A stretch of 16,846 nucleotides of DNA from Nitrospinae bacterium RIFCSPLOWO2_12_FULL_45_22 (GCA_001803565.1 MHDQ01000017.1:1-16846); one strand, 5' to 3'. Numbered from the stretch's first letter, positions 1-16,846 are shown. Notes: generated by a model from the sequence alone, not told the origin. Program-made: numbers and translations.

Positions 1-36
1 ATCCGCTAAGACTGCCAAATCCGCTAAGACTGCCAA
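1..36. repeat. Two tandem copies of an 18-bp unit at the window edge
   Basis: The unit ATCCGCTAAGACTGCCAA occurs twice in perfect direct tandem, then ATGT follows. It lies inside the intron-like region, beyond its structured part. On the minus strand one frame stays open through it and reads a repeated FGSLSG. I see no start codon for that frame inside the window. It may be part of the intron's open reading frame, a small local duplication, or an edge artefact of assembly. Two copies are too few and unspaced, so this is not CRISPR. Confidence 0.7.
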
Positions 37-78
37 ATGTCCTTTTCGGGTTCGTTCGGTTCTCCCTATCCTCACCCG

Positions 79-290
79 ATACCCCGGATCGAGTCCGGGG
101 CAGGCTCTTGCATCACTCTTCTTTCTTTGTGTCCCTTTCCCATGAAAGGCTTGCTTGAGAGGCTGGAGCTTCCTCTCAATGCCGGGAGTCTTTACCTCTA
201 CGGTCGGCACTCCTAAAACCTTATACTACACAAGGAGACAGTTGGCTATCCCAAGTTCCCAGAGCCTGCCCCGGACTTGATCCGGGGTTA
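79..290. repeat. Inverted pair of REP-like palindromic repeats inside the intron-like region
   Basis: Positions 79-108 and 261-290 are near-identical copies in opposite orientation. Each contains a CCCCGGA-T-GATCCGGGG palindrome followed by the shared tail CAGGCTCT (as read in the first copy). The 152 bases between them are AT-richer and include structured segments. The copies look like dispersed palindromic repeats that inserted into, or bracket a segment of, the intron-like RNA. Together they could fold into a long stem, isolating the enclosed segment. Confidence 0.75.
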
Positions 291-654
291 CCCCCATGAA
301 TACATGCCCTGATCTCAGACCCCGGTGGTGTCCTGTATACATCGCCATATCGCATCCAGAACTGCTGCCTTCCGCACCGCTGCACGGCGTCGGCTTTCAC
401 TCTCTCCATACTCCGAGAGGCTATCCTAGTGACCACAACTATACATATTTCGGGGCTCAATACAGAGCCTGCACCCTTGATCCATCCGGCTTCGGACTCC
501 CGTTACCGGGCTTACCCGCAGACTTCTCTACTGACCTGTTGGCTAGACTTTAGTCAGGTGGGACTTGGGCCGTACCGACCCTCACCCACTGGGTAACAAC
601 ATCGAATTTCATGGGCTACCGCCCAATCCCTTCGACCTGGATTTAACTTGGCAC

Positions 655-674
655 GAGCAACGCCTTGTTAGGCC
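655..674 (-). other. Half attC site (R'' and L'' arm) interrupted by the intron-like sequence
   Basis: On the minus strand the 211-aa gene ends with its TAA stop lying inside GGCCTAAC, a canonical attC R'' box (RYYYAAC). AAGGCGTTGCTC follows, as an L'' arm would. The complementary right half is missing; the intron-like sequence starts at about 654 instead. A weak alternative is a very short 33-bp site ending in GTTAAAT (641-647). That is shorter than usual for attC and would leave a poor stem. Confidence 0.55.
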
Positions 675-1303
675 GCTCGTCCCGGTAGGCGCCGTCGGAG
701 CACTAACAGAAGGCGGCCGAGTGGTGATCCGCGGTATCGGCGATTCGGGAACCGATACCTCTGGCTGCTACCGTCAGCCAGCACCACACGGTACTCCAGG
801 TCGTCGCGACAAACGGCGTCGTGCAGACGCGTGACTGCTTCCCGGACCTCACGGCGCTCATAAATCTGCTTCGCACGCCACTGCCTGGTCGGGTCGTTGA
901 TGCTCCACGGATCCGTCCAGTACCCGTCGATCTCCTTGTACTCGAAAGGTCCGATTGGCATTGGCTTTCGAAAGGCCTCATCGCATCCCGGAATCAGTTC
1001 GTCGATCACAAGGGTCAACCACTTGGAATCGTAGTAGTCGCGGTATGGGATCATCCGCAAGACGTGTCGATCGGTGGGTCGCCATTGAATGTTCAGCACT
1101 GCATGACCGACGGGACTTCTGTTGAGCAATCTGCAGCGAAACGTGTAGGCCGCATTCAATCCGTCAGGCACCCGGGAATCGGCCCACACGCTCACAAGCT
1201 CGACGCGTGGCTGGGCGCGTCTCAGCTCAAGCCAGGCGATGTACGACCCGGCGGCGGTTGCTACTCCTGCGATGAAGGCCAAGGCGATGTTGATCTGGTC
1301 CAT
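668..1303 (-). CDS. Cassette-borne membrane-anchored hypothetical protein, 211 aa
   Basis: I do not recognise this family. The protein begins with a hydrophobic segment (about residues 5-25, IALAFIAGVATAAGSYIAWL), which suggests one N-terminal membrane anchor. A soluble region of about 180 residues with alternating strand-like segments follows, then a basic arginine-rich tail (LLLVLRRRLPGR). The start ATG lies 16 bases after the core GTTAGGG of the upstream attC (1320-1326). The stop TAA lies inside the GCCTAAC R'' box of its own attC. This tight packing between core sites is how integron cassette genes are built. The gene is GC-rich compared with its neighbour at 1402-2061, which suggests independent origins. 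There is only a weak purine-rich stretch (GAAAGAG) as ribosome binding site. Function unknown; confidence in coding is good. Confidence 0.75.
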   Translation of the reverse strand: MDQINIALAFIAGVATAAGSYIAWLELRRAQPRVELVSVWADSRVPDGLNAAYTFRCRLLNRSPVGHAVLNIQWRPTDRHVLRMIPYRDYYDSKWLTLVIDELIPGCDEAFRKPMPIGPFEYKEIDGYWTDPWSINDPTRQWRAKQIYERREVREAVTRLHDAVCRDDLEYRVVLADGSSQRYRFPNRRYRGSPLGRLLLVLRRRLPGRAA

Positions 1304-1319
1304 TGCTCTTTCAAGGCGG

Positions 1320-1381
1320 CCCTAACGCCCGGGCTAAGCGGTGCGACATAAGGAGCGTCCGACTTCAGCCCATGGTTCGGC
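1320..1381 (-). other. attC recombination site of the 219-aa cassette (62 bp)
   Basis: On the minus strand it runs from R'' GCCGAAC (1375-1381) to R' GTTAGGG (1320-1326). The inner arms GGGCTGAAGTCGG and CCGCTTAGCCC pair with two extra bases on one side, as expected of the extrahelical bases of attC. It starts 20 bases after the stop of the 219-aa gene and ends 16 bases before the next start codon. The R'' box deviates from RYYYAAC at one base, but the cassette's start core carries the matching change. Confidence 0.75.
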
Positions 1382-1401
1382 GATGCTTCCTTTGTTCGAG
1401 T

Positions 1402-2061
1402 TCAGAGCACTGCTCCTATGGCCGTAACCAAGTCATATAACCGTTTCTTGAGTTTGTCACGTCCCTCCGGAATGCCCTTGTATTGTTCGACTTCATCCTG
1501 TTCCAATTTTTCAATAAAGTCTTCATATGCCATATTACTCATGTGTTCGACGTTGCACACATAATAATGAAAGTCGGTAATTTCACCAAAACTAAGGCAG
1601 AGTCTGCCAGCAGCTTCAATACATGCGTCTACAGATGTTAAGACCGAGCCAAGACTCGTACCATGCCTCGCCCTAATTTTTTCATTTATTTTCTTAGTAT
1701 GAATGGAAACGCACAGTCTCTCCAATGTCTCTTTGGAGACCTCGGTAAGCCCGACTTTCATCGTCTCTTCGTTTCTAGTACGACGCTTAGTTTCGCCGTC
1801 TAGATCGATTAGACTGTGTATAATATGGTAGGCGTGGTATTTCCTCAGTGCAATTTGATCAATCAGTTTGTTTGTCAAGTCAAGCAATACGTGACATTCT
1901 CGTGCCAGATCCTTAGCTGTTTGTGTTATTGAATCACGTTCGTCTTTTCTTCTGAAATAATGGGTGACGGCATAACTAGTTAACGCCCCGGTAGCCAAGC
2001 CAGACAAGATACTTAGGACGATCTGCCATCCGTAAGCTTCCATAAACTGCAAGAGGCACAC
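1402..2061 (-). CDS. Cassette-borne membrane-anchored hypothetical protein, 219 aa
   Basis: I do not recognise this family. A hydrophobic segment near residues 12-32 (WQIVLSILSGLATGALTSYA) is followed by charged RRKDERD, predicting one N-terminal membrane helix with the rest cytoplasmic. The remainder is mainly helical in character, with a Cys/His-containing stretch (LARECHVLLD) and many charged residues. I take the GTG at 2059-2061 as start because AAGGAAAG lies seven bases upstream; an ATG 18 bases further in has no such site. The gene sits between the core GTTCGGC (2082-2088) and its attC (1320-1381). It is AT-richer than the 211-aa gene. Being membrane-tethered with a helical cytoplasmic body, it could be a defence or signalling accessory protein, but nothing in the sequence proves that. 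Confidence 0.75.
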   Translation of the reverse strand: MCLLQFMEAYGWQIVLSILSGLATGALTSYAVTHYFRRKDERDSITQTAKDLARECHVLLDLTNKLIDQIALRKYHAYHIIHSLIDLDGETKRRTRNEETMKVGLTEVSKETLERLCVSIHTKKINEKIRARHGTSLGSVLTSVDACIEAAGRLCLSFGEITDFHYYVCNVEHMSNMAYEDFIEKLEQDEVEQYKGIPEGRDKLKKRLYDLVTAIGAVL

Positions 2062-2081
2062 TTATTGACTTTCCTTATGAC

Positions 2082-2174
2082 GCCGAACAGTTAAGTATAC
2101 AGACGTCTATTATATTGACACTAGACAGACATCTACTATATTGATACTATGCAGAATCTATTTTATTGAATATC
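2082..2174 (-). other. Core site GTTCGGC beside three 26-bp-spaced direct repeats (attI-like)
   Basis: The cassette start core GTTCGGC (2082-2088, minus) is followed, 11 bases further upstream, by three imperfect direct repeats starting at 2100, 2126 and 2152. On the plus strand they begin CAGACGTCTA, CAGACATCTA and CAGAATCTA, each followed by a TATTGA-like stretch. Known attI sites place integrase-binding direct repeats on this same side of the core. No integrase gene adjoins; leuS lies on that side. The repeats could equally be operators or promoter elements: plus-strand TTGACA (2115-2120) is followed about 16 bases later by TATATT. Confidence 0.45.
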
Positions 2175-2298
2175 TCCACCTCCTTTATACCACATCTGTC
2201 TTTGATTTCGTACCCTCCACCTTGCAGCTGACCACTATCCCCTGCTACTAAATTGTCAAGTGTAAACTCTAAGATTGTTGCTAATTTTGCAATGAAAG

Positions 2299-4800: not shown

Positions 4801-4814
4801 CTCTCGTATCTTCT

Positions 4815-5549: not shown

Positions 5550-5969
5550 TTAATCCTTCCCTACCTCCTTTTTGATGCGATCCAGAATACCATTGATGAA
5601 GAGGGCTGACCTTTCGGTGCTAAATTTCTTGGCTATCTCAATAGCCTCATTAATAGTCACTTTAGGCGGAATATCTTCCATATAGCAAAGTTCGCATACG
5701 GCTAAACGTAAGATATTCCGATCTATGAAACCCATCCTCTTCAGGGACCAATTTTTGCTAAATTTCTTGATTAAATTATCAATGGTATCCTGGCACTCTG
5801 AGGTTTTAGAGACTAATCGTTGGGTGAATTCTTTAGTTTCCGCCGGGGTGTTAGGATTAGGATATTGTTCCCAGAACTCCTCGAGGGATTTGGGCGTAGT
5901 ATCCTGGCAAATATCTATTTGATAAAGGATCTTCAAGGCATCTTCCCGGGATATTCTCCGTTGCCCCAT
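5550..5969 (-). CDS. nusB: Transcription antitermination factor NusB
   Basis: A 139-aa all-helical RNA-binding protein that acts with NusE (ribosomal protein S10) at boxA during rRNA transcription. The N-terminal pattern RRISREDALKILYQIDI matches the family's opening helix. The C-terminal half shows LRLAVCELCYMEDIPPKVTINEAIEIAKKF, here cited only by position (about residues 86-115), and ends with the usual SALFINGILDRI (about 121-132). The preceding gene is ribH, a very common bacterial pairing. The only good ribosome binding sequence (AAGGAGG) touches the ATG with no spacer. Initiation therefore probably relies on ribosomes arriving from ribH, whose stop is five bases upstream. Confidence 0.95.
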   Translation of the reverse strand: MGQRRISREDALKILYQIDICQDTTPKSLEEFWEQYPNPNTPAETKEFTQRLVSKTSECQDTIDNLIKKFSKNWSLKRMGFIDRNILRLAVCELCYMEDIPPKVTINEAIEIAKKFSTERSALFINGILDRIKKEVGKD

Positions 5970-5974
5970 CCTCC

Positions 5975-6448
5975 TTATTCACTCCCCATCTCCCGATAGA
6001 GATTTACCATCTCTAAGGCAGCTATTGCTGCATCCCAGCCTTTATTGCCTATTTTTGTCCCGGCCCGTTCAATAGCCTGTTCGATATTCTCAGTGGTTAA
6101 TACTCCCAGAATAATAGGCACTCCGGTCTCTAAGGCAGTATTAGCAATACCTTTGGTTACCTCAGCGGCAATATATTCATAATGGGGTGTAGCGCCCCGA
6201 ATGATAGTGCCCAGGCAGATCACAGAGTCGTACCTCTTCCCTAAGGCCAGTTTTTTTGCTACATAGGGTATTTCAAAAGAACCGGGCACCTTAAAGATGT
6301 CTATATCGTCATCCCTCACACCATTCCGTTTCAAAGCGTCAAGACATCCTTCCAGTAACCGGCTAGTGATAAAGTCATTAAAGCGACTAACTATAATACC
6401 GAATTTAAACCCTTCCCCCCTTAAGAACCCCTGAAATATTCTTGGCAT
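5975..6448 (-). CDS. ribH: 6,7-dimethyl-8-ribityllumazine synthase
   Basis: This enzyme condenses 5-amino-6-ribitylamino-uracil with 3,4-dihydroxy-2-butanone 4-phosphate, the penultimate step of riboflavin synthesis. It usually assembles into pentamers or 60-mer capsids. The 157-aa length is normal. Motifs seen are SRFND (21-25), VPGSFEIPY (54-62), [13 protein letters not shown] with the catalytic His89, GVLTTEN, and GNKGWDAA near the C-terminus. A strong AAGGAGG site precedes the ATG. It lies 12 bases after ribE and 5 bases before nusB. Its product is the substrate of the adjacent ribE. The other riboflavin genes (ribD, ribBA) are not in this window. Confidence 0.97.
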
Positions 6449-6460
6449 AAGTATTCCTCC

Positions 6461-7120
6461 TTATAAAAAACCATGTTCAGCAAGGAATTCTTGATCAATT
6501 AATCCAGGCCGATCTTTAAGCTGCTGGCCCCATTGAGCATCCATAAATCGCTCTATATATTTACCTATAAGGTCAGCCTCCAGGTTTACTGCGCTACCGA
6601 TGCTTTTCTGGCCTAGAGTAGTCATTTTGGCTGTATAAGGAACTACGGATATCTGGAAGCGGTCTTCCCAACAACTGGCTATGGTCAAGCTTATTCCATC
6701 CAGGGCAATAGAACCTTTGGTCACAATATATTTCATGACTTCTGGTGGGGCTTGCGCAGTGATGGTCAAAAAATCTCCTTCCCTACCCAGGGCCACTATC
6801 CGGCCTACTCCATCAATATGGCCGGTGACCTGGTGCCCCCCCAGGCGGTCTCCGAGTTTCAAGGCCCTTTCTAAATTTACCCCTTCTCCTATCCGGAGCT
6901 TACCCAAATTAGATCGGATTAAGGTCTCAGGAGAGACTTCTACCACAAAGCTATCCTTTTCGGCCTTTACTACCGTAAGGCAAACGCCATTAACCGCAAT
7001 GCTGTCCCCTGCTTTAAGCTCACTGAGAACCTTACTGGCTTTTATCGTCAGGCTTAAGCCATTTCCCTTTCGGCCCAGCCTGACCAGCTCGCCTATCTCC
7101 TCTATTATACCAGTAAACAC
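6461..7120 (-). CDS. ribE: Riboflavin synthase, alpha subunit
   Basis: It converts two molecules of 6,7-dimethyl-8-ribityllumazine into riboflavin and the pyrimidine precursor. At 219 aa it is the normal size. Two lumazine-binding repeats are visible. The first has MFTGIIEEIGE, GDSIAVNGVCLTV, SPETLIRSNLG and VNLERAL; the second starts at GGHQVTGHIDGVG and has GSIALDGISLTI and VNLEADLIGKYIER. The start is GTG, preceded by GAGGAGATAG, which is a suitable ribosome binding site. It opens the operon ribE-ribH-nusB-phosphodiesterase-leuS. The 171 bases upstream show no FMN riboswitch that I can recognise and no convincing promoter. Confidence 0.96.
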   Translation of the reverse strand: MFTGIIEEIGELVRLGRKGNGLSLTIKASKVLSELKAGDSIAVNGVCLTVVKAEKDSFVVEVSPETLIRSNLGKLRIGEGVNLERALKLGDRLGGHQVTGHIDGVGRIVALGREGDFLTITAQAPPEVMKYIVTKGSIALDGISLTIASCWEDRFQISVVPYTAKMTTLGQKSIGSAVNLEADLIGKYIERFMDAQWGQQLKDRPGLIDQEFLAEHGFL

Positions 7121-7291
7121 CTATCTCCTCTTTCCCATTTTCTGACCCTGGGCCCTTCCTTGATCCCCTGGGCAATCAAATCAAAGTCAAGTTAAATATA
7201 GCTGAAAAATAGCCCCTATGCCATACTTATATGTTGAAATCGTCAAACGCAAATTTGGCTCGCTTTGGCATCGCAGTGTTTGCATGGAAAC

Positions 7292-8206
7292 TCAGGGGGA
7301 TTGTTGCGGGCCAAGATTCTCACCATTTCCTTCCCCACCTGAATAAGCGGTTTTTATGGCTTTATCGCCTATTAGTTTATAGATATGTTCCATATCATTG
7401 AAGAAGTCAGGTTTTCCGCCCCAGAAGGCAGGGGGGCCCAGGAGTTTAAGGATTGCTATAGAGACTGTTGCTGGATTAATAGAGACATTGAAGGCTTCAA
7501 ATCCTTCTCCGATATGCCAAAACTTATCCAAAGCGTCTTCTAAAGGTTCTACTTTACTAGATTCGCTGACAAATGCCCCAGACCTTCCCTCTGCTTCTGG
7601 CTTCCCTAAAGAGCGTATCTTGCGTAGTTCATCAATGATTTGTTCCTTCCTTCGCCCCCGCAGATGGAAGATCATAAAGGGGTCTCGGTCAAACTCATCG
7701 GCTAAAATGTAATAGAGCGCAGCAATATGCTTGCAGGGATTAGCCCAGTCCGGGCAAGAGCATTCGGTCTTGAGGTCTTTTGCCGAGTTGGGTAGAAGCG
7801 ATACATTTGCGGCGGCAAATGCCTCTTCAATATTCTGCGGCATCTCACCGGTAAGGAGCTTTGCGGCAAAGATAGCCTGAGACCCCATAACCGAGATTAC
7901 CTTCTCCCAATCGGCAGCGGAGATCAATTTTAACTCGATCTTTACCGAATAGGGTTTAGGTCGAGTCCCCTGTACCCGGGCAGTTACCTGACCTGGATTA
8001 ATGGCAAAATCAACTACCTGTCCGCTCCTGGCATATTTCCTGCCGCGCTGAAGCCTTGCTGACCAACCAAAAGACTCCAGGGCCGAAAGCCATTTCTTTG
8101 ACCACCAGGTAGCCCCTATTTTGTCTGACTGAAGCTTAATCCCATCGGCTACCTGCTTTGGTTTTGCTGGTTTGTATCTCGGGTAAAAATAATTCCACCT
8201 GCCCAT
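7292..8206 (-). CDS. SWIM zinc-finger protein, partner of the SNF2 helicase
   Basis: A 304-aa protein with a SWIM zinc finger: Cys149, Cys151, Cys158 and His160 in TECSCPDWANPCKHIAALYY (CxCx6CxH). The N-terminal YPRYKPA and WWSKKW stretch (about 9-40) is typical of proteins encoded next to SNF2-family helicases. SWIM domains are thought to bind nucleic acid or protein. The gene starts five bases after the helicase stop with GGAGGGG just upstream, so the two are translated together. The pairing is common in bacteria, but the cellular role is unsettled; DNA repair or chromatin-like remodelling have been proposed for relatives. The C-terminal 100 residues have no motif I recognise. Confidence 0.92.
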   Translation of the reverse strand: MGRWNYFYPRYKPAKPKQVADGIKLQSDKIGATWWSKKWLSALESFGWSARLQRGRKYARSGQVVDFAINPGQVTARVQGTRPKPYSVKIELKLISAADWEKVISVMGSQAIFAAKLLTGEMPQNIEEAFAAANVSLLPNSAKDLKTECSCPDWANPCKHIAALYYILADEFDRDPFMIFHLRGRRKEQIIDELRKIRSLGKPEAEGRSGAFVSESSKVEPLEDALDKFWHIGEGFEAFNVSINPATVSIAILKLLGPPAFWGGKPDFFNDMEHIYKLIGDKAIKTAYSGGEGNGENLGPQQSP

Positions 8207-8211
8207 CTTAT

Positions 8212-11200
8212 CTACCCCTCCCCTACCTGCATCGCCTCTTCAGAGCGCAAGGTGAATATATCTCGAAGCATATCGTTGGAAAGCTCTGTAAGCCATCCCT
8301 CATCGGTTCCTACTATACTTTCAGCCAGCCTCTTCTTCATCTCCAGCATACTATCAATCTTTTCCTCCAGGGTTCCCAGGCAGACAAATTTATAGGCCAT
8401 GACATTCTTTACCTGTCCTATACGGAAAGCCCGGTCGGTTGCCTGATTTTCTACCGCCGGGTTCCACCATCGGTCAAAGTGGAAGACGCGATTCGCCCGG
8501 GTAAGATTCAGCCCAAGACCCCCGGCTTTTATGGAAAGGACAAAGATGGGTGGGCCATCCCTTTCTTCCTGAAAACGGCTTATCATCATATCGCGCATCT
8601 TCGCAGGGATACTTCCATGCAAGAATAGGACTTCCCGCCCAAATCGGGACCTCAGATGCTTCTGGAGCATCTTTCCCATCTCCACATACTGGGTAAATAT
8701 AAGGGCCTTATCATCTTCAGAAAGGACTTCTTCCATCATCTCACAGAGGCGATTAAGTTTCTCTGAACGCCTGGGAGTATCACTCCCATCTTGTAAGAAT
8801 AGTGCTGGATGATCGCAGACCTGCTTCAGCTTGGTGAGGGTTGAGAGTATCAGCCCTTTTCGATTGATCCCTTTCGACTCCTCAATCTTCAGCATCATAT
8901 CGTCAACTGTGGCCTGGTAGAGGGTTACCTGTTCCCGGGATAGGGTGCAATAGACTTTTATCTCAACCTTTTCCGGCAAGTCCTTTATTATGGTCTTATC
9001 TGTCTTTAACCTGCGTAGAATAAAAGGCTGGATCAGTTTACGGAGTCTTTCAGAGGTTTCGTGGGATTTATACCGCTCGATAGGATTGGCAAATTTGGCC
9101 CTAAACGAAGTCAAGGGGCCGAGATATCCGGGATTGAGAAACTCCATGATAGACCATAGCTCTGTCAATCTGTTTTCTACCGGCGTACCAGTGAGGGCAA
9201 TGCGATAACCCCTTGCCAGGGTGCGTACAGCTTGTGCCTGTTTGGCAAAGGGATTCTTTATATTCTGGGCCTCATCCAGGATAACCCCTTCCCATGATAC
9301 TTTACTAAAGTCCTCTTTGTCCCTTAAGGTCAGGGAGTATGTGCTTATGATAAGGTCATGCCCCTTGGCCCTCTTCAAAAACTCTCTGCCTGAATAGCGC
9401 TCAGAGCCATAATGAACCAGGATCTTAATAGAAGGAGCAAAGCGTTCTATTTCCCGGCGCCAATTTCCTACCACGGATGTAGGACAGATCAAGAGCACAG
9501 GCCCAGCGGGACGTTTTCTCCTTTTATCCCCGTTTTTATGCAAAAGGAGAGCCAATGCCTGGATGGTCTTACCCAGGCCCATATCATCCGCCAGACATGC
9601 CCCCAGACCTACCTCACTCAAGAAAGCGAGCCAGGAATAACCCCGGAGCTGATAAGGTCTGAGCTCTCCCTTAAATCCCGGAGGGGTTTCCAGTTCTTTA
9701 AAGTCTATCTCCTTATAGATAACATCTTTAAGCCAACCCTTAATGTCAAATCCTACGAGATCAAGCCCTACCCCTTCTCCGGCAAGGCCCAGGTGCAATG
9801 CCTGGCCCAGGTTTAAACCCTCCTTATCAATCTTGTTCAGGAATTTCATGGCCGAGTCAATATCATTTTGGTTGATCTCAACCCATCTGCCTCGTACCTG
9901 CACCAGAGGGAGCTTTAGTTGAGCTATCTTTTCCAATTCCTCCTTGCTTAGTTTCTCATCGCCAATAGCGATCTGCCAGTCAAAATCCACCAGGCCACTT
10001 AGGGTAAAAAATCCGGTCGTTGATCCCTGGGATGGTTTAGGAGACTTTACCGTAAGCCTTATTCCCGGTTTTGCTCCTTTAGCCCACCAGGAAGGCACCA
10101 GGACATTAAATCCGCTCTCCTCCAAAAGCCATGCCCCTTCTTTTAAGAAGGTATAGGATTGTTCAGTGTTAATAGGGGCTGATGCTGGATGGGCGGTTTG
10201 CAAACTTTTTTCCAGCGGAGGGAAAAGCCTCGATGCCTTTGCTATATCCTGAAGGAATCTCTCTTGCGCAATTTCTAATTCGCCTTTCAGGAGTTTCACG
10301 GTAGATTTGGTCTTTTTCCAGAGGGTAGGGGCGGGTAGAAAGAGGCTTTTATCATCGGTAGCCTGGAGATGGAAGGAGATAGCCCATTTGTCTCCATCAG
10401 ATTCTGGCTCTTCTAATCGGAAACTGGTGCGCCAGGGGAGTTCTTTCCCTGCCACCTGCACCCCTTCTGACCATAATGGGATAGACTCCTTGAGGGTCTT
10501 TATCTGGTGGGTGGTGCCGTTTATTTCAGGATTTGTGGAACATAGGGCTTTAAGCCAGAGGGAGGCAAGGTTATCATAACCAAAGAGGCGCTCCTTTAAG
10601 CCGGGACTTAACCCCTCTGAAAGCCATTTCCGGATTCCTTCATCTATACAAAAACTCAGAAAATCGGTTATCAGTTGATAGGGGTTATGGTTGCCCTTTC
10701 CCCCCTCAGTAACAAAGGCACGGCAGACAGGTGGCATTGATTTTGCCAGGAGCGCGAATCGTTCTATATCGTTAGTATGATTGATCACCGGTCTCCATAC
10801 GGCACAGAGTCTCCCAGTTGTATCTTTTACTGAAGGCACGAATCTCTGGCGCGTAAGGAGTTCCAGGCCGAATTTTGCCGCGGCGCTCCAGAAGCGTATA
10901 TCCTGGCCAATAGAGAGTTGGGGTGAAGACCCCTCCCCCTTTTCGGGGATAAGTCCAAGCCAGATAAAGGTTTCCAGGGCTGGGAGCAGTACACAGGAAA
11001 CTTTCCAGGGTATGAGTTTCAGGTCAGTTTTTGTCTCATAATATTGTGGATCAAGGAATGGGGCAGAGGCATTAGGAATACCTTCCCCGGTGGGGAGCAG
11101 AGCTGTCATCTGTTCCCTGGATACTATAGAGGGGGTCATCTCAAGGGATTTAAGGGCACTTACTATCTCTCCTTCAGAGGCCTGAAATGGGTGATCAATC

Positions 11201-11319
11201 GCTTTTTGCTTACGAGTTCTCTTTGGGCGCTTAATTTCACCTTCTGATGATTCTCCCCAGAAACAAAATTTCCTTGTATTATCCTTTCTAAGACACCATG
11301 TTCCATGTAAAACTATCAT
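8212..11319 (-). CDS. SNF2/HepA-family DEAD/DEAH-box helicase, 1035 aa
   Basis: A large ATP-dependent DNA translocase. The N-terminal half (about 1-540) is a family-specific region opening with IVLHGTWCL. The catalytic half starts at LRPYQLRGYSWLAFL (about 553-567). It has Walker A DDMGLGKT (578-585), Walker B LDEAQ (681-685), motif III ALTGTP (708-713), and the C-terminal helicase lobe with SIKAGGLGLNLTRA, FDRWWNPAVENQA and DRAFRIGQ. All expected motifs are present, so it should be active. Family members move along double-stranded DNA without strand separation. There is no good ribosome binding site before the ATG, but the opening residues fit the family. It precedes the SWIM gene by five bases as a two-gene operon. 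The region upstream is the large inverted repeat. Confidence 0.96.
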   Translation of the reverse strand: MIVLHGTWCLRKDNTRKFCFWGESSEGEIKRPKRTRKQKAIDHPFQASEGEIVSALKSLEMTPSIVSREQMTALLPTGEGIPNASAPFLDPQYYETKTDLKLIPWKVSCVLLPALETFIWLGLIPEKGEGSSPQLSIGQDIRFWSAAAKFGLELLTRQRFVPSVKDTTGRLCAVWRPVINHTNDIERFALLAKSMPPVCRAFVTEGGKGNHNPYQLITDFLSFCIDEGIRKWLSEGLSPGLKERLFGYDNLASLWLKALCSTNPEINGTTHQIKTLKESIPLWSEGVQVAGKELPWRTSFRLEEPESDGDKWAISFHLQATDDKSLFLPAPTLWKKTKSTVKLLKGELEIAQERFLQDIAKASRLFPPLEKSLQTAHPASAPINTEQSYTFLKEGAWLLEESGFNVLVPSWWAKGAKPGIRLTVKSPKPSQGSTTGFFTLSGLVDFDWQIAIGDEKLSKEELEKIAQLKLPLVQVRGRWVEINQNDIDSAMKFLNKIDKEGLNLGQALHLGLAGEGVGLDLVGFDIKGWLKDVIYKEIDFKELETPPGFKGELRPYQLRGYSWLAFLSEVGLGACLADDMGLGKTIQALALLLHKNGDKRRKRPAGPVLLICPTSVVGNWRREIERFAPSIKILVHYGSERYSGREFLKRAKGHDLIISTYSLTLRDKEDFSKVSWEGVILDEAQNIKNPFAKQAQAVRTLARGYRIALTGTPVENRLTELWSIMEFLNPGYLGPLTSFRAKFANPIERYKSHETSERLRKLIQPFILRRLKTDKTIIKDLPEKVEIKVYCTLSREQVTLYQATVDDMMLKIEESKGINRKGLILSTLTKLKQVCDHPALFLQDGSDTPRRSEKLNRLCEMMEEVLSEDDKALIFTQYVEMGKMLQKHLRSRFGREVLFLHGSIPAKMRDMMISRFQEERDGPPIFVLSIKAGGLGLNLTRANRVFHFDRWWNPAVENQATDRAFRIGQVKNVMAYKFVCLGTLEEKIDSMLEMKKRLAESIVGTDEGWLTELSNDMLRDIFTLRSEEAMQVGEG

Positions 11320-11348
11320 AAGAATATACCAGTGTTAAAGATTAATAT

Positions 11349-11643
11349 TTAACCCTAACTTTTGTACAAATACTCCAGGAAATCTCAAAAAAATGAAACA
11401 AAGAAAATAAATATCGTAACCGTTCAGGGAGGTATCTACCGCAGAGACGCGGAGAATGGAACTAAACCAGTTTTAGGCTAGCGGCTAAGGGCAATAGGCA
11501 ATACGCCTTCCCATGGCCCATTGCCCCTGGCCTAATTAGAGTAGTCTTCTCTGCGTCTTTGCGCCTCTGCGGTGAACGGATACGAAAAATAATATTTCAA
11601 ATTTTTGAGGTTTTGCCCACTATTTGTACAAAAGTTACGTTAA
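11349..11643. repeat. 295-bp nested inverted-repeat element (MITE or foldback type)
   Basis: The ends TTAACCCTAACTTTTGTACA (from 11349) and its near-complement ending in GTTACGTTAA (to 11643) pair over about 24 bases. Moving inward, the arms continue to match imperfectly through CTCAAAAA-like and CCGTTC stretches. The next layer is ACCGCAGAGACGCGGAGAA (11438-11456) opposite a copy at 11547-11573. The centre holds GGGCAATAGGC opposite GCCCATTGCCC. No open frame is present. It lies between the helicase operon and the attC cluster and would form a very long cruciform or RNA hairpin. Confidence 0.8.
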
Positions 11644-11719
11644 CGTAACATTAATTGTAATCCAAGGTCAAGAATTTTATGAGTCAGGGATTTTGTTTGA
11701 GCAAAATATAGAGACAAAT

Positions 11720-11778
11720 ATAGAACGCTCGAGATCAGCGGGGCGTATTAACGCATCCGCTGGATTGAGTTGTTAGGC
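11720..11778 (-). other. attC-like site of an empty mini-cassette
   Basis: Minus strand: R'' GCCTAAC (11772-11778), inner arms CTCAATCCAGCGG and CCGCTGATCTCGAG pairing well with unpaired bases, and R' GTTCTAT (11720-11726). The right core is degenerate, as might occur at the decayed end of an array. Only 66 bases separate it from the next attC, with no gene between them. Confidence 0.6.
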
Positions 11779-11844
11779 AATGTTATCTTTCATTTGCAAC
11801 TCAATACTCAAGTCTGACCCCAAACTTCCATTCCCTCATCTCTC

Positions 11845-11903
11845 GTGTAACTTCGTGGCGCAGGCGCAACGGAATAGCGGTCAGGTGGAGCGCCTTGTTA
11901 GCT
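11845..11903 (-). other. attC-like site of the PIN toxin-antitoxin cassette
   Basis: Minus strand: R'' AGCTAAC (11897-11903), then AAGGCGCTCCACCTGACCGC; the far arm GCGCC and a degenerate core GTTACAC (11845-11851). The stem is shorter than in the next site at 12536. The R'' side matches that site almost base for base over about 35 bases (shared GGAATAGCGGTCAGGTG), so the two are relatives. The left half has diverged or recombined. Confidence 0.6.
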
Positions 11904-12066
11904 CTCCTTCTTTTTCTTTTTTTAATTCTGATTCTGACTTTATAGTTGTCTTAGGTTTCTGTGACAACAGATAATCAATGTATCTATCCGGATCATTGGC
12001 AAATTTTTCAGAAATAGAACTGCGAACCCTGCGGGTATCCTTTACTATTGGAGCATCTTCAATCAT
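11881..12066 (-). CDS. Small antitoxin-like protein paired with the PIN toxin, 61 aa
   Basis: A short charged protein with PIVKDTRRVRSSISEKF (about 6-22), then DPDRYIDYLLSQ, then a lysine/glutamate-rich tail. This resembles the small partners (VRRIREE...F..D pattern) often encoded right after this PIN subfamily, so I infer an antitoxin. It lacks an obvious DNA-binding domain. The start overlaps the toxin's stop by eight bases (ATGATTGA) with AGGAG six bases upstream. The coding frame runs through the attC R'' box and stops in its L'' arm. The order is toxin first, reversed from classical vapBC. A mispaired or truncated reading cannot be excluded for so small a gene. Confidence 0.75.
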   Translation of the reverse strand: MIEDAPIVKDTRRVRSSISEKFANDPDRYIDYLLSQKPKTTIKSESELKKEKEGELTRRST

Positions 12067-12517
12067 AGTAATCTCCTATTAACTGATTCGGGGTTACTAA
12101 ATTCGGTATATACAAGCGAATTTGCCGGAACTTATTCGGATTGGCAATGTGCTTACAGTTCCATGTAAGCAAATAATCACATTTGTGATATGATGCCAAT
12201 GCAAGATGTAAGGCATCCCCCAAAGGATTTTTGGGTATCACTTGATTTTGAATATATATCTTAACAATCTGTCTTATCTCATCCTCAATTGGGACTTCAG
12301 GTATATTCTCTATAAGTTCGAGGGCTTGTTGGGAATGAGGAAAATCAGGATGTTTTAATTCATCAACTACAACCCGGCTTACAACAACTTCATATCTATT
12401 TCTTAACTCATCCCACCATATACGTGTCCAATATTTTTGGGCGACTGACACAATATCGGCTCTCTCATCAAAGTATGCACCGATCACAGATGTCTCTACA
12501 TAAACTTTTTCAATCAT
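12059..12517 (-). CDS. PIN-domain ribonuclease toxin (VapC-like), 152 aa
   Basis: A PIN-domain protein expected to cleave RNA with a metal-dependent acidic site. It opens KVYVETSVIGAYFD, where Glu9 stands in the position often filled by Asp, as is usual in this subfamily. DELKHP (about 52-57), GDALHLALASYHKCDYLLTW (99-118) and NCKHIANPNKFR follow. The end LVTPNQLIG matches the subfamily's C-terminal TP-x-x-L pattern. Length is normal. It starts 18 bases after the cassette core GTTAGCC and overlaps the antitoxin-like gene downstream. Toxin-antitoxin pairs are common in integron arrays, where they are thought to stabilise cassettes. Family is secure; toxicity is inferred. Confidence 0.88.
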   Translation of the reverse strand: MIEKVYVETSVIGAYFDERADIVSVAQKYWTRIWWDELRNRYEVVVSRVVVDELKHPDFPHSQQALELIENIPEVPIEDEIRQIVKIYIQNQVIPKNPLGDALHLALASYHKCDYLLTWNCKHIANPNKFRQIRLYIPNLVTPNQLIGDYYD

Positions 12518-12535
12518 GTACTATCCCAATATGAG

Positions 12536-12607
12536 GGCTAACGTCAAAGCTCACCTGGCGCTATGGAGCGCAGCGGAATAGCGGTCAGGTGCAGCGCCAT
12601 GTTGGGC
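12536..12607 (-). other. attC site of the 77/76-aa cassette (72 bp)
   Basis: Minus strand: R'' GCCCAAC (12601-12607), inner arms GCACCTG and CAGGTGAGC pairing, a variable loop with a GCGCTCCATAGCGC-like hairpin, and R' GTTAGCC (12536-12542). It begins 12 bases after the stop of the 76-aa gene and is followed 18 bases later by the PIN toxin start codon. Confidence 0.8.
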
Positions 12608-12619
12608 GAAATGGAATAT

Positions 12620-12850
12620 CTAGATTGCTATTCTTAGTGCTTCTTGCGCCTCGCGGGGTAACTGTACAAGAATGAAATAAGACTGGGGATAAAGATAATC
12701 TTCACCTGATTCATCGATTACTCTGAGGTATCCCTCTTTTTCTGCTTCCTCATCCGGCAGAACCTGGTAGATCTTACGCTTTTCTAAATCCTCACAGTCC
12801 TTGTTCTCTATACAAAGCGCAAATATCTGTCCTTTTTTTTCTTTTTCCAT
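12620..12850 (-). CDS. Small acidic hypothetical protein, 76 aa
   Basis: I do not know a function. The 76-residue protein is rich in Glu and Asp and has a compact pattern: ALCIENKDCEDLEKRKIYQV (about 11-30), DEEAEKEGYLRVIDESGEDYLYP, then a C-terminal VQLPREAQEAL. It reads like a small beta-barrel (SH3-like) fold, with GEDYLYP as a turn. The gene starts four bases after the stop of the basic 77-aa gene and is followed by an attC. The acidic and basic proteins in one cassette suggest a functional pair. A toxin-antitoxin or modulator pair is possible but unproven. Confidence 0.75.
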   Translation of the reverse strand: MEKEKKGQIFALCIENKDCEDLEKRKIYQVLPDEEAEKEGYLRVIDESGEDYLYPQSYFILVQLPREAQEALRIAI

Positions 12851-12854
12851 AGCT

Positions 12855-13088
12855 TTAATCCAGTATCCTTTTGATTTTCATCTTCTTTCTACCAATGCCG
12901 TGGGCCTCGTACCAGTGGACCTCTGCTTTACATATCCTGCCACTCTGAAGACGGACATTCGCCACGCCTTTGAGTTTGCGCCATCGGCCAGGCCCATACT
13001 GTTTCCGAATCCGCATTATATCTTGAATTCTTCCTCCCACGGCAATGGTTTGAATTTTCTCTATTTCTCCAATTATATCTAAATACAT
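12855..13088 (-). CDS. Small basic hypothetical protein, 77 aa
   Basis: I recognise a recurrent small bacterial protein pattern but not its function. It has RIRKQYGPGRWRKLKGVANV (26-45), then RLQSGRICKAEVHWYEAHGI and a lysine-rich end (GRKKMKIKRIL). The basic character suggests contact with nucleic acid. The conserved-looking HWYEAHG segment may be catalytic or structural. It begins about 36 bases after the cassette core GTTGGGC and is followed at four bases by the acidic 76-aa gene. Both lie within one cassette. There is no strong ribosome binding site; translation may start from a near-leaderless transcript or a weak site. Confidence 0.78.
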   Translation of the reverse strand: MYLDIIGEIEKIQTIAVGGRIQDIMRIRKQYGPGRWRKLKGVANVRLQSGRICKAEVHWYEAHGIGRKKMKIKRILD

Positions 13089-13123
13089 GGCTTATTGCAC
13101 CACAAGATATTGAATCATCATAA

Positions 13124-13210
13124 GCCCAACGACAAAAATGAGCCGCCGCGAAACGACGCTGTCTAAATCAAAGCACGCTGTATGCGGTCGGCTCCAGTGA
13201 ATTGTTGGGT
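13124..13210 (-). other. attC site of the 181-aa cassette (87 bp)
   Basis: Minus strand: R'' ACCCAAC (13204-13210), arms GGAGCCGACCGC and GCGGCGGCTC pairing with one mismatch, a central variable loop, and R' GTTGGGC (13124-13130). It is the longest attC here and one of the clearest. The following cassette's start core GTTGGGC exactly mirrors that cassette's own R'' box at 12601-12607. Confidence 0.85.
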
Positions 13211-13283
13211 ATAGTAGAGATTGGAGTCAAAGCAAAGAGTCAACTCCAATCTCTACCCCTATTAACCTTGTTAATGTGTGTCG

Positions 13284-13823
13284 CTATGGGAGATCAACAA
13301 GGACTCGAAGATCAATAAAACTTTCACCACCGAGATCTGTTGCAACCACCTTCAATACATTTGGCCCTACTAATAACAGAGGGTCTGGAGAGATAATTAA
13401 AAACTCATCCACTAGTGGACAAAAACCGTGGGTTACTACTCCTATTGACGTGCCGTTAATAAAAATCTCAGCATCGTTATCTATCGATAATTGCACCCTC
13501 AAATTATGTGCACCTGGTGGCAAAGTAAACCCTTTTTTGAGTGTTATCACAGTACTTACAGGCCAAAAACTCTTTACTGTCGACTGTAATGGGCAACCAT
13601 CACCACTGCCAAACGGCGCCTTGTGAGTGCCTGGGACTCCCACCACTTTGTATTTTGCATGATTTGGTATAACCACTATCGTTTTGTCTGTTATTCCAGG
13701 ATCAGGAGTTGGCACTGGATCTGCCACCGCAACCGATTGGAAACCCGCGGTGAGCGTAACAAACATGCCAACTACAAAAAAACACAGTGTTCTTGAGACT
13801 AATCTTTCTAATCGCTTTCTCAT
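13284..13823 (-). CDS. Secreted beta-sandwich-like hypothetical protein, about 179-181 aa
   Basis: A signal peptide is visible: basic RKRLERLVSR, hydrophobic TLCFFVVGMFVTLTAG, and a probable cleavage after VAVA. The mature part has strand-like repeats: NLRVQLSIDNDAEIFINGTS (about 109-128 of the longer form), a Cys-containing loop (THGFCPLVDEF), and VLKVVATDLGGESFIDLRV at the end. The DNDAEIFINGT pattern is like galactose-binding jelly-roll domains, so it may bind sugars or form part of a surface structure. I chose the ATG at 13823 because AAGGAG lies six bases upstream; the ATG at 13829 touches that site. It has its own promoter, unusual for a cassette gene. No C-terminal anchor is seen. Confidence 0.82.
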   Translation of the reverse strand: MRKRLERLVSRTLCFFVVGMFVTLTAGFQSVAVADPVPTPDPGITDKTIVVIPNHAKYKVVGVPGTHKAPFGSGDGCPLQSTVKSFWPVSTVITLKKGFTLPPGAHNLRVQLSIDNDAEIFINGTSIGVVTHGFCPLVDEFLIISPDPLLLVGPNVLKVVATDLGGESFIDLRVLVDLP

Positions 13824-13844
13824 TTTCATCTCCTTGTGTGGTTA

Positions 13845-13873
13845 ATTATACCCCCTGTGAAGGGGGGGGTTAA
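13845..13873 (-). promoter_or_regulatory. Likely promoter of the secreted-protein cassette
   Basis: Minus strand TTAACC (13868-13873), a 17-base spacer, and a perfect TATAAT (13845-13850), about 20 bases before the start codon region. The spacer contains a C8 run and GGGGG that can form a hairpin (CCCCC-TTCACA-GGGGG), which may influence promoter use. The -35 matches consensus at four of six bases. Confidence 0.55.
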
Positions 13874-13912
13874 TTTTTACAGGCTGACAATGGTCTCCCA
13901 CCATACTGTCCC

Positions 13913-13971
13913 GCCCAACTTTCGGTTCAGCGGCGGCGCTTTGCGCCGTCTGCTGGAACCGGTTGTTAGCT
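13913..13971 (-). other. attC site of the katA-sodC-cupin unit (59 bp)
   Basis: Minus strand: R'' AGCTAAC (13965-13971), arms GGTTCCAGCAGACGGCGC and GCGCCGCCGCTGAACC forming a long stem with unpaired bases on one side, a loop of AAA, and R' GTTGGGC (13913-13919). It lies 11 bases after the stop of the catalase remnant. It is the best-formed attC in the window. Confidence 0.88.
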
Positions 13972-13982
13972 GACAGTTTTGT

Positions 13983-14100
13983 CTATTTCTGAACTTCGCT
14001 TAGAGGGATGCCTAGTGCCATGGCCACTCCTTCGCCATAAGCCGGGTCGGCTTTCAGGCAGTTGCCGATGTGGTAATCCACCATCATTCCAGCACCGAAC
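13983..14100 (-). pseudogene. C-terminal remnant of a second catalase
   Basis: The last 30-odd codons of a catalase remain: [20 protein letters not shown], then GIPLSEVQK and a TAG stop at 13983-13985. The intact katA in this window ends [20 protein letters not shown] and GIPLSEIPK, so homology is certain. The two differ at many codons, so it is not a recent duplicate. In frame, an ATG pair exists at 14082-14087, but no ribosome binding site is evident and the heme-binding core is absent. The upstream boundary is blurred in the 19 bases after the cupin stop. It marks a deletion that removed most of a neighbouring catalase gene. Confidence 0.85.
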
Positions 14101-14119
14101 AACTCCTTCGATGAAGGTC

Positions 14120-14509
14120 TCAGTGATGTTCTGCGGCCTCCGCTGCATCTGCTTCGGCTTTCGTCTTATGCACTGTGCCGTCAGGATGATTGGGCGGGGT
14201 ATAAATCGTGTAGAGCCTGACCGGTTTAGTCGAAGACGTATTGATCACATTGTGGAATATGCCGGCAGGCACCACAACCGCGTCACCGTCACCGACAAGG
14301 TGTTCCTCCTTGTCATTGAAGACGAATTTGGCATTGCCTTCTTCGATGCGGAAGAACTGGTCGACGTTTGCATGCACCTCGTTGCCGATCTCCTCATTCG
14401 GCTGCAGACACATCACCACGAGCTGGCTGTATTTGCCGGTGAATAACACCTGACGGAAGAAGCTGTTATTTAATGTTGCTTTCTCAATAGGTCCAACATA
14501 GCCTGTCAT
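14120..14509 (-). CDS. Single-domain cupin protein, 129 aa
   Basis: A small cupin (double-stranded beta-helix) likely to bind one metal ion. Motif 1 is EIGNEVHANVDQFFRIEEG (about 40-58), a known variant where the usual HxH...E is replaced by H-x3-DQ. Motif 2 is PAGIFHNVIN (about 81-90), giving the second histidine. The tail from about residue 112 is Ala/Glu/Lys-rich and helical. A strong AAGGAGG lies seven bases upstream of the ATG. It follows sodC by about 80 bases and precedes the catalase remnant. The substrate is unknown; as neighbour of catalase and superoxide dismutase a role in oxidative or metal stress is plausible. Confidence 0.9.
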   Translation of the reverse strand: MTGYVGPIEKATLNNSFFRQVLFTGKYSQLVVMCLQPNEEIGNEVHANVDQFFRIEEGNAKFVFNDKEEHLVGDGDAVVVPAGIFHNVINTSSTKPVRLYTIYTPPNHPDGTVHKTKAEADAAEAAEHH

Positions 14510-14547
14510 TGTCTTTACCTCCTTTTTGCAGAACAGGATTTTAGGTG

Positions 14548-14572
14548 CTCCCTCCCCGATTAAGGAAGGGAG
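14548..14572 (-). terminator. Hairpin between sodC and the cupin gene (weak terminator or processing site)
   Basis: Minus strand CTCCCTTCC, loop TTAATC, then GGGGAGGGAG: a stem of about nine pairs with one mismatch, starting 20 bases after the sodC stop. No T-run follows, so it is more likely an mRNA-stabilising or attenuating hairpin than a complete Rho-independent terminator. Confidence 0.35.
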
Positions 14573-14591
14573 TCCCTTGGATTAATAGTTC

Positions 14592-15116
14592 TTACTTAAC
14601 TACGCCACATGCTGCCCGGACACCACCGCCGCCAAGCGGGGCCGGTGTGTCGGCATAATTGTCGCCTCCAACATGAATCATAAGCGATCTTCCTTTGATG
14701 TCAGCTGCCTTCAGGCGCGGGGCAAGGACAGGAAGTGTTGCCTTCCCATCAGCAGACACGTAGAGGGCGGGCAGGTCCCCGAGATGGCCGTTGCCATAAG
14801 GTCCTTCGTGTTTGCCCGCGTTTGCAGGGTCGTAATGGCCGCCAGCAGCAAGCGCCGGGACTGCTTTCCCGTCTCCCTTCATGGCATGGGAGCAATCCGG
14901 TTTGTCATGCACATGGAACCCATGCAGACCGGGTGCAAGGTCGGTCAACTGCGGCGTCAGGATAAGTCCATATTTGCTGTCGGATGCCGTGATGGTGCCG
15001 ATTTCATTACCTATACCTTGTTCGGTCACCAGCGAGACCTTGACAATGACATCCTCGGCAAAGACATAACCGGCAAACAACAGAATGAAGGATAAAACAA
15101 GTAAAGCTTTCAACAT
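14592..15116 (-). CDS. sodC: Secreted Cu-Zn superoxide dismutase
   Basis: It dismutates superoxide to oxygen and hydrogen peroxide in the periplasm or outside the cell. I take the ATG at 15116 (174 aa) because AAGGAGGAG lies just upstream and the resulting start is a clean signal peptide, MLKALLVLSFILLFAGYVFA, cut before ED. Expected copper ligands are His68, His70, His94 and His148; zinc ligands are His94, His103, His111 and Asp114. Cys75 and Cys170 should form the disulfide, and Arg167 guides superoxide. All key residues are present. It follows katA by 42 bases, so the enzyme making peroxide and the one destroying it are co-transcribed. The gene is GC-rich relative to the housekeeping block. 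Confidence 0.95.
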   Translation of the reverse strand: MLKALLVLSFILLFAGYVFAEDVIVKVSLVTEQGIGNEIGTITASDSKYGLILTPQLTDLAPGLHGFHVHDKPDCSHAMKGDGKAVPALAAGGHYDPANAGKHEGPYGNGHLGDLPALYVSADGKATLPVLAPRLKAADIKGRSLMIHVGGDNYADTPAPLGGGGVRAACGVVK

Positions 15117-15158
15117 AGCGTTCTCCTCCTTAAATTTAATGATTTGCATTCACTGCAA

Positions 15159-16622
15159 CTATTTGGGTATTTCACTTAACGGTATGCCAAGCGCGTCAGC
15201 TACCCCCTTGCCGTAATCAGGGTCAGCCTTAAGGCAATTGCCGATGTGACGGATATGTATCTCCCGCGGCGCGTCCTTGATAGCTCGGGCGGTGTTCGCG
15301 AAGAGGAGCGCCTGCTTTTCGGGGCCTATCAGGCGGAAGAGCAGGCCGGGCTGAGTGTAGTAATCATCATCGTCTTCGCGGAAATTCCAGTGGTCTGCAG
15401 CCCCCTCCAGCGCCAGGGGCGGTTCGGCGAATTCCGGCTGCTGCTGCCATTCCCCGTAACTGTTGGGCTCATAGCCCAGCGTGCTGCCATAATTGTCGTC
15501 AACCCGCATGGCTCCGTCGCGGTGATAGCTGTGGTAAGGGCAGCGGGGCGCATTGACCGGAATTTGGTGGTGGTTCACGCCGAGCCGGTAGCGCTGAGCG
15601 TCGCCGTATGAAAAGAGCCGTCCCTGCAGCATCTTGTCGGGTGAAAAGCCGATGCCGGGCACGATGTTGGCCGGGTTGAAGGCCGACTGCTCGACCTCGG
15701 CGAAGTAGTTCTCAGGGTTGCGGTTCAGTTCGAAGACACCCACCTCTATAAGAGGGTAATCCTTCTTGAGCCAGACCTTGGTGAGATCGAAGGGATGGAA
15801 GCGGTATTTTGCCGCGTCCTTTTCCGGCATTACCTGTATGAACATGGTCCAGAGGGGAAAGTCTTTCTTCTCGATGCTCTCATACAGGTCGCGCTGGTGG
15901 CTTTCCCGGTCTTTGCCGATAATCGCCTCTGCCTCTTCATCGGTGAGGTTCTTGCTCCCCTGCTGAGTCTTGAAGTGAAACTTGACCCAGTACCGTTCAT
16001 TCTTTGCATTAATGAAGCTGAAGGTGTGGCTGCCGAAACCGTGCATGTGGCGGTAGGAAGCGGGAATGCCCCGGTCGCTCATGACGATGGTGACCTGGTG
16101 CAGCGCCTCGGGCAGTGATGTCCAGAAATCCCAGTTGTTCTTGGCGCTGCGCATATTGGTGCGTGGATCGCGTTTCACGGCGTGGTTGAGGTCGGGGAAT
16201 TTCAGCGGATCACGCATGAAGAATACCGGCGTGTTGTTGCCCACCAGGTCCCAGTTGCCTTCCTCAGTGTAGAACTTCATGGCAAAGCCCCGGATGTCGC
16301 GCTCCGCATCCGCCGCACCTCGTTCCCCGGCCACAGTGGAGAAGCGGACGAAGAGATCGGTCTTCTTGCCGATTTTGGAAAAAATCTTCGCTTTGGTGTA
16401 ACGGGTGATGTCGTGGGTAACAGTGAAGGTGCCGTAAGCACCAGAACCCTTGGCGTGCATTCTCCGCTCGGGGATGACCTCCCGGTCGAAGTGGGCGAGC
16501 TTTTCCAAGAACCAGACATCCTGCAGCAGCATCGGGCCGCGCGGCCCGGCTGTCATGACATTCTGATTGTCTGGGACAGGTGCCCCGGCGTTGGTGGTCA
16601 ATTTCTTCTTCTCGTCTTTCAT
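15159..16622 (-). CDS. katA: Monofunctional heme catalase (clade 3 type)
   Basis: It decomposes hydrogen peroxide to water and oxygen. The 487-aa length is that of small-subunit catalases. The distal histidine is His56 in [13 protein letters not shown], the distal Asn is Asn129 in [12 protein letters not shown], and the heme-ligating Tyr is Tyr339 in [14 protein letters not shown]. The core is complete, ending with [20 protein letters not shown]. There is no signal peptide, so it should be cytoplasmic. AAAGGAGAAAG precedes the ATG. Only 37 bases separate the start from the group II intron 3' end and no promoter is visible there, so transcription must come from within or beyond the intron. It is followed by sodC (42 bases). 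GC is higher than in leuS-nusB, consistent with separate acquisition. Confidence 0.97.
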
Positions 16623-16654
16623 GGTCTTTCTCCTTTCGGGTTTTGATTTGGTTC

Positions 16655-16660
16655 AGCTAA
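16655..16660 (-). other. Cassette core half-site TTAGCT at the intron junction
   Basis: The minus strand reads CCCGATTAGCTGAACC across the junction. TTAGCT is the six-base cassette 5' end predicted from R'' AGCTAAC at 13965-13971. The TT could belong to either intron or exon, so the splice point is within a base or two of 16658-16660. Confidence 0.5.
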
Positions 16661-16846
16661 TCGGGATAGGGGGGAGCCTCACGACCCCCCTCCTCCCACA
16701 CCACCACTGCATTCGGATCACGAACAGGGCGGTTCGGTAGATTACTCTGGTCCTATGGACCAGCCGGGTGTTCAGTCAGAATGGCGCAACGACCAATTCG
16801 CTTGCCCTCTTCGGACAGGCCACCACACATATAGTGCCGGTGTAAT
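16660..16846 (-). mobile_element. Group IIC intron 3' end (domains V and VI), running off the right edge
   Basis: Minus strand from 16735: GAACCGCC opens a domain V hairpin (16700-16735) with CGC in the triad position, as in group IIC introns. A four-pair upper stem TTCG/CGAA has a two-base TG bulge on its 3' side, and the helix closes with GGTGGT then GTG. Domain VI (16662-16697) is a GC-rich stem, AGGGGGG opposite CCCCCCT, with a likely bulged branch-point A in CCTATCCC, and the intron ends near CCCGATT. One unpaired T lies in the lower domain V stem and the loop has five bases, so the ribozyme may be weakened. The stretch 16740-16846 has no long frame I can assign to the maturase. Confidence 0.72.

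Follow-up and report, generated by a model that had tools for sequence, protein, structure and literature searches.

Gene cassettes of a probable sedentary chromosomal integron, decayed in part, and its broken integrase gene in a Nitrospinae bacterium

Gene cassettes around a chromosomal leuS locus

Integron gene cassettes are a known gene-collecting system of bacteria. The stretch of DNA that was analysed (the window) comprises 16,846 nucleotides, positions 1-16846 of the 21795-base contig C17, from the MAG of Nitrospinae bacterium RIFCSPLOWO2_12_FULL_45_22 (3.67 Mb in 321 contigs, 85% complete), which belongs to a poorly sampled, uncultured lineage near Deltaproteobacteria/Nitrospinota. The short minus-strand genes in the window are genuine integron gene cassettes. 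They are arranged as two minus-strand clusters, a main array at 11720-16659 and a separate pair at ~655-2087, with a 9-kb chromosomal block between them (SNF2, SWIM, ribE, ribH, nusB, phosphoesterase and leuS genes). The array is therefore chromosomal, as housekeeping genes lie on its flanks. The features are listed below in the direction of transcription; the core score is the recomputed number of positions, out of seven, at which the start core of a cassette complements its own R'' box.

16660..16846, minus strand: 3' end of a group II intron (domains V-VI region, read from the sequence), ending in ...CCCGAT
13913..16659, minus strand: three-gene cassette, core 7/7, with no attC inside, genes assigned with Pfam, ending in its own attC
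15159-16622, minus strand: catalase gene (Pfam) within this cassette
14592-15149, minus strand: Cu/Zn SOD gene (Pfam) within this cassette
14120-14509, minus strand: cupin gene (Pfam) within this cassette
13913..13971, minus strand: attC of this cassette
13124..13918, minus strand: cassette with a secreted-type 181-aa ORF (13284-13829) and attC 13124-13210, core 6/7
12536..13129, minus strand: cassette with 77-aa and 76-aa ORFs and attC 12536-12607, core 7/7
11845..12541, minus strand: cassette with a PIN-domain protein (12059-12517, Pfam) and a decayed attC (11845-11903), core 6/7
11881-12066, minus strand: 61-aa ORF within the PIN cassette
11720..11850, minus strand: gene-less remnant cassette with the terminal attC 11720-11778, core 5/7
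1320..2087, minus strand: isolated cassette with a 219-aa ORF (1402-2061) and attC 1320-1381, core 7/7
655..1325, minus strand: cassette with a 211-aa ORF (668-1303), core 6/7, its attC interrupted behind R'' (667-673) and the spacer by a group II intron
1..654, minus strand: group II intron of the D1-D4-6 type (Rfam RF02005, 96.7 bits at 310-567)

An earlier reading of the sequence alone had proposed an array in which genes start tens of bases after R' and stop at or within R''. The distances from R' to the gene start are indeed 19-84 bases. The second part is borne out by the 61-aa ORF, whose stop codon lies inside the attC, but not by the other genes, which stop 13-149 bases ahead of R''. 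For most cassette ORFs, no family was found in Pfam, NCBIfam or PADLOC. The oxidative-stress cassette (catalase, Cu/Zn SOD and cupin) is 2.7 kb long and has a GC content of 54-57%, compared with 40-44% in the neighboring cassettes.

Immediately behind the array end lies a gene pair coding for an SNF2 helicase (DUF3670 type) and a SWIM zinc-finger protein (7292-11319), which was not observed close to leuS among the nearest relatives. PADLOC matches of the SNF2 protein to ZorD/DpdE were rejected as cross-matches through the common helicase domain. Between the SNF2 gene and the array end, positions 11430-11590 contain an inverted repeat (CGCAGAGACGCGGAGA / TCTCTGCGTCTTTGCGCCTCTGCGG type) that may be a dispersed, MITE-like element.

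The only part of the locus common to relatives, for example a Tectomicrobia MAG, is the rib-nusB-leuS order. None of 80 related leuS loci contained the cassette genes beside leuS, nusB or rib genes, so the vertical conservation of gene order that had been named as an argument against cassettes does not apply.

attC sites and cassette start cores

Two covariance models were used to locate attC sites. R1 was trained only on foreign attCs to avoid circularity; its ten sites came from plasmids with class-1 integrons and from a plasmid integron of a cyanobacterium, and each has the layout R''(7)-9-L''(6) ... L'(6)-9-R'(7). R2 additionally included attCs from other contigs of this genome and none from C17. 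Searched against the whole 3.67-Mb genome, R1 found ~30 sites on ~20 contigs, among them 13124-13210 (minus strand, E 4.8e-5) and 11720-11778 (minus strand, E 7.3e-5, 34.8 bits). In the window, R2 added 12536-12607, 1320-1381 and 13913-13971, all on the minus strand, and gave no match on the plus strand. The R2 scores were 39.5 bits for 13124-13210, 39.3 for 11720-11778, 31.2 for 12536-12607, 25.2 for 1320-1381 and 22.2 for 13913-13971. One of these sites, 1320-1381, lies outside 11720-13971. Of the five attC-like stems that the sequence-only reading had placed within 11720-13971, the covariance models recovered four, all on the minus strand. The stem of the fifth, at 11845-11903, has decayed: its R'' (AGCTAAC) and R' (GTTACAC) are well kept, but the L' half is degraded, which explains why this site is marginal in R2 (E ~0.6). 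The R'' at 667-673, which belongs to the intron-split attC, is covered by a weak R2 match (641-673).

As a control, R2 was run on 504 kb of relatives' leuS loci and produced two matches, one of which (in locus L047, described below) adjoins a broken intI and is probably a real attC. In 311 kb of contigs from this genome, there were 57 matches, a density that is not a genome average since these contigs had been picked for attC, intI or intron matches. Genome-wide, R2 yielded at least 42 matches at E<=0.1, with 150 of 541 candidates scored, and the genome contains ~40 attCs in total. Judged against the control, R1 and R2 thus show R''/L''/L'/R' attC sites arrayed in a single orientation.

Other approaches were less informative. 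When six sites were folded and compared with shuffled sequences, 1320-1381 and 11845-11903 were no better than the shuffles and 12536-12607 was marginal, so thermodynamic folding was rejected as a sole criterion. A home-made R''/R'/L-box scanner found 6-13 matches in Markov-shuffled versions of the same loci at the threshold used, and because of this lack of specificity the covariance models were used instead. No attC family fired in an Rfam search, in which group II introns were the only matches.

Integron crossover falls in G/TTRRRY. The TTRRRY at the start of a cassette is therefore its own and must pair with its own R''. This was scored at the four variable positions of each cassette. For 27 cassettes delimited by consecutive attCs across the genome, 87 of 108 positions matched, compared with 55.2 ± 3.9 when the partners were shuffled (z ~8; 0 of 100,000 shuffles reached 87/108). 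The nine cassettes of C17 gave 31/36 matches (permuted 19.4 ± 2.7, p=1.5e-5), and the seven in the window gave 23/28 (permutation p=0.0017). Both genome-wide and on C17, start cores hence complement the R'' of their own cassettes. The individual scores reported earlier (three exact, three at 6/7 and a poor one for the empty cassette) were exactly reproduced, including that of the catalase-SOD-cupin cassette, whose core is divided by the intron into GT (5' exon) and TAGCT (3' exon) and has AGCTAAC as its own R''. The exactness of the match may track array decay. Complementarity between start core and R'' is a cheap, alignment-free test of real cassettes that can be used from sequence alone.

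Integrase genes and the origin of the clusters

A remnant of intI is located on the same contig (C17 ~21408-21751, plus strand), ~4.6 kb past the window, where it runs off the contig end. Its reading frame shifts once 35 residues have been encoded and is also interrupted by an in-frame TAA, and its two frames are 56% and 43% identical to intact IntI. As in a canonical integron, the remnant is upstream of the array and divergent from it. The region between the window and the remnant holds two further cassettes, both with cores of 7/7, one of which carries a type II restriction-modification pair, and no gap between attCs from the main array to the remnant exceeds ~3.6 kb. Looking for intI elsewhere in the genome, as had been suggested, revealed two full-length IntI genes (C243 and C304, 467 and 439 bits, over the family cut-off), each divergent from a cassette array. 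The remnants in the genome number about nine (C115, C136, C317, C7, C17, C287, C248, C95 and C106). The array had been described as integrase-less, which does not hold given the broken intI on its own contig and the two intact genes in the genome; it looked so because the window edge stops short of the remnant. The description as an attC cluster without integrase has to be given up for the main array and stands for the ~668-2087 pair.

The intact IntI on C304 (4451-5815, locus L011) has 454 aa and an N-terminal extension of ~135 aa; an IntI clade ~120 aa longer than usual has been mentioned (PMC2426708). Matches to TIGR02249 on C55, C202, C65, C77 and other contigs are without the IntI-specific region and, judging from the missing profile positions, would represent other tyrosine recombinases.

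As the MAG is fragmented, the frameshift and stop in the C17 remnant could in principle be assembly errors, but clear internal deletions in remnants on other contigs argue that the decay is real. The intI copies on C136 and C317 are 83% identical over 596 bases and have lost the same internal segment, residues ~128-270 (L013 ~6143-6657 and L015 ~8631-9142), which would fit the copying of an already truncated platform. Duplication and decay of integrons within a genome have been reported earlier (PMC2426708).

The intI-proximal region of C17 matches the end of C206 at 88-99% identity, and C206 likewise begins with a piece of intI. The contigs diverge exactly at G/TT and continue with different first cassettes, each with a core that matches its own R'' at 7/7. 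This point of divergence may mark attI, but the same place also holds a long palindromic attC-like element that adjoins intI on both contigs (L009 5050-5250 on C17; 1-410 of C206, locus L143); one copy of this element is without ~98 bases of its R'' half.

Taken with the attC architecture and the core rule, these data make it very probable that the main array forms the distal part of a sedentary chromosomal integron and that the integrase belonging to this integron is dead. Cassettes would have entered as circles, with IntI recombining the folded bottom strand of attC at the G/TT of R', at first presumably by the integrase of the platform itself while that gene was still unbroken. The two surviving IntI proteins could still act in trans to mobilise those attCs that are intact. 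The array itself appears to be decaying: both stem and core are degraded at 11845-11903, and one R' contains an intron.

The neighboring integrase gene, broken as it is, belongs to the array only if the scaffold is correctly joined. An 8-N gap is present at ~16847-16855 of C17, inside the right-edge intron, with a 22-base duplicated overlap, and relatives of this gap-spanning intron are found on C87, C140, C144 and elsewhere. As the gap lies in a multi-copy intron, the join between array and remnant could be chimeric, and the whole set would then be a true CALIN, which never had a neighboring integrase or has lost it, with the remnant misjoined to it at the repeated intron during scaffolding. 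We consider this improbable, since orientation and spacing across the join are exactly canonical, the restriction-modification cassette and the first cassette past the gap score 7/7 on the core rule, and the same intI-proximal region, followed by cassettes, recurs on C206. The join is probably real. It is less probable still that every cassette here was inserted off-target by a trans-acting IntI in an attG-type capture, with the local remnant being unrelated. The ~20 attC-bearing contigs, several with a single site, and the non-attC junction at which the 219-aa cassette begins would fit such a scenario, but a run of seven cassettes in one orientation up to a divergent intI is the pattern that attI insertion gives.

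Same-strand intergenic hairpins are common in bacteria, and the folding comparison, in which two of the six sites failed to surpass the shuffled sequences and 12536-12607 surpassed them by a small margin, would also suit vertically inherited small genes between terminator hairpins or dispersed palindromic repeats. This explanation can practically be dismissed: the attC-specific box spacing (7-9-6 / 6-9-7) was recognized by a foreign-trained model, the start cores are complementary to R'', intI is present in the genome and the cassette genes are not conserved beside leuS in the 80 related loci.

The cluster at ~668-2087 differs in its setting. A plain G/TT marks the beginning of the 219-aa cassette, in an attG-like junction (AACTG/TTCGGC) without a preceding attC, and the start core GTTCGGC of this cassette matches its own R'' at 7/7. 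The simplest reading of this junction would be an off-target insertion, and the two cassettes probably entered past the leuS 3' end, at a site that is attG-like and not an attC. Cassette insertion at attG sites (Loot et al. 2024, as cited in PMC12901181 and PMC11023631) is, as far as these citing articles describe it, similar in that a cassette is joined at G/TT to chromosomal DNA and starts without attC or attI; here, the insertion is a probable one, read from the junction. With attC sites and no nearby intI, the cluster resembles a CALIN as defined in IntegronFinder (at least two attCs and no nearby integrase; PMC9024848), which is a fair name for these two cassettes. The main array differs by the intI remnant on its own contig and is a CALIN only within the window.

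In relatives, a Deltaproteobacteria MAG (CG_4_8_14_3_um_filter_43_13, locus L047), with a leuS that is 72% identical, has a broken intI and an attC directly upstream of leuS (9400-9960 and 8331-8390), the attC coming with a BrnT/BrnA-like gene pair. Two other relatives' genomes (G041 and G043) contain several intI matches and 11 and 26 attC matches, so multiple, partly dead integrons seem habitual in the lineage. In a relative of the same order (G001), IntI is present with no attC near it.

The array as such is largely ordinary, a real, partly decayed sedentary chromosomal integron. It resembles sedentary chromosomal integrons with inactivated integrases (PMC2426708) in attC architecture, divergent intI, core rule, and frameshift plus stop. 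Approximately one-third of surveyed intI genes are pseudogenes, and about one-fifth of hosts have more than one intI (PMC2426708). The present case differs in its unusually many remnants, about nine beside two intact copies, in a poorly sampled MAG lineage. What remains of interest is how many dead integrases accompany the two live ones, together with a family of introns on the attC top strand. A lineage with several platforms, most of them dead, and two intact IntI genes offers a natural setting for the question of whether orphan arrays stay mobile in trans.

Group II introns at attC sites

The right-edge intron occupies 16660-16846 of the window and continues on C17 to ~17518 (L009 ~660-1519) in cassette orientation; beyond the window it matches Rfam group-II-D1D4-3 with 122 bits. 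By eye, it appears to be of class IIC, with a CGC triad in a 34-nt domain V hairpin. On C17, C140 and C87, the intron 5' ends have the same GTGTGTGCCGGGCATGGC immediately after the attC stem and spacer, and on C17 the 3' end is followed by TAGCT, which indicates insertion at GT/TRRRY of R' on the top strand. The intron thus splits R' of the upstream attC at GT/TAGCT. The adjacent attC was called by the model on C17, partly on C140 and by eye on C87.

Group IIC-attC introns likewise sit at attC and cut at GT/T, but their insertion point is TTGT/T in R'' on the bottom strand, and they run against the direction of cassette transcription (PMC7923331). In contrast, the introns on C17, C87 and C140 lie on the top strand, in cassette orientation, with the 5' junction CGT/ at R' instead of R'', so that the bottom-strand R'' location of IIC-attC introns does not apply to them. 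One earlier top-strand case, in Enterobacter cloacae (Rodriguez-Martinez 2012), is cited in PMC7923331. Among six relatives searched, the right-edge intron family was not found in five and gave only a 66-base match in the sixth. We see about an even chance that the three introns, each beginning at the GT of R' in a different attC, represent a group IIC-like family with a specialization for the top strand. If so, an intron in the top strand of R' would block cassette excision and stay transcribed with the cassettes, and could therefore splice out of the array transcript.

The left-edge intron (RF02005), whose exact ends are uncertain, is also in cassette orientation. Its 5' end, GTGCC at ~654, follows R'', the spacer and CTC, so that the attC is cut between spacer'' and L'', and the intron runs off the contig. 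A second copy on C151 has the same 5' boundary after an R''-spacer-like sequence.
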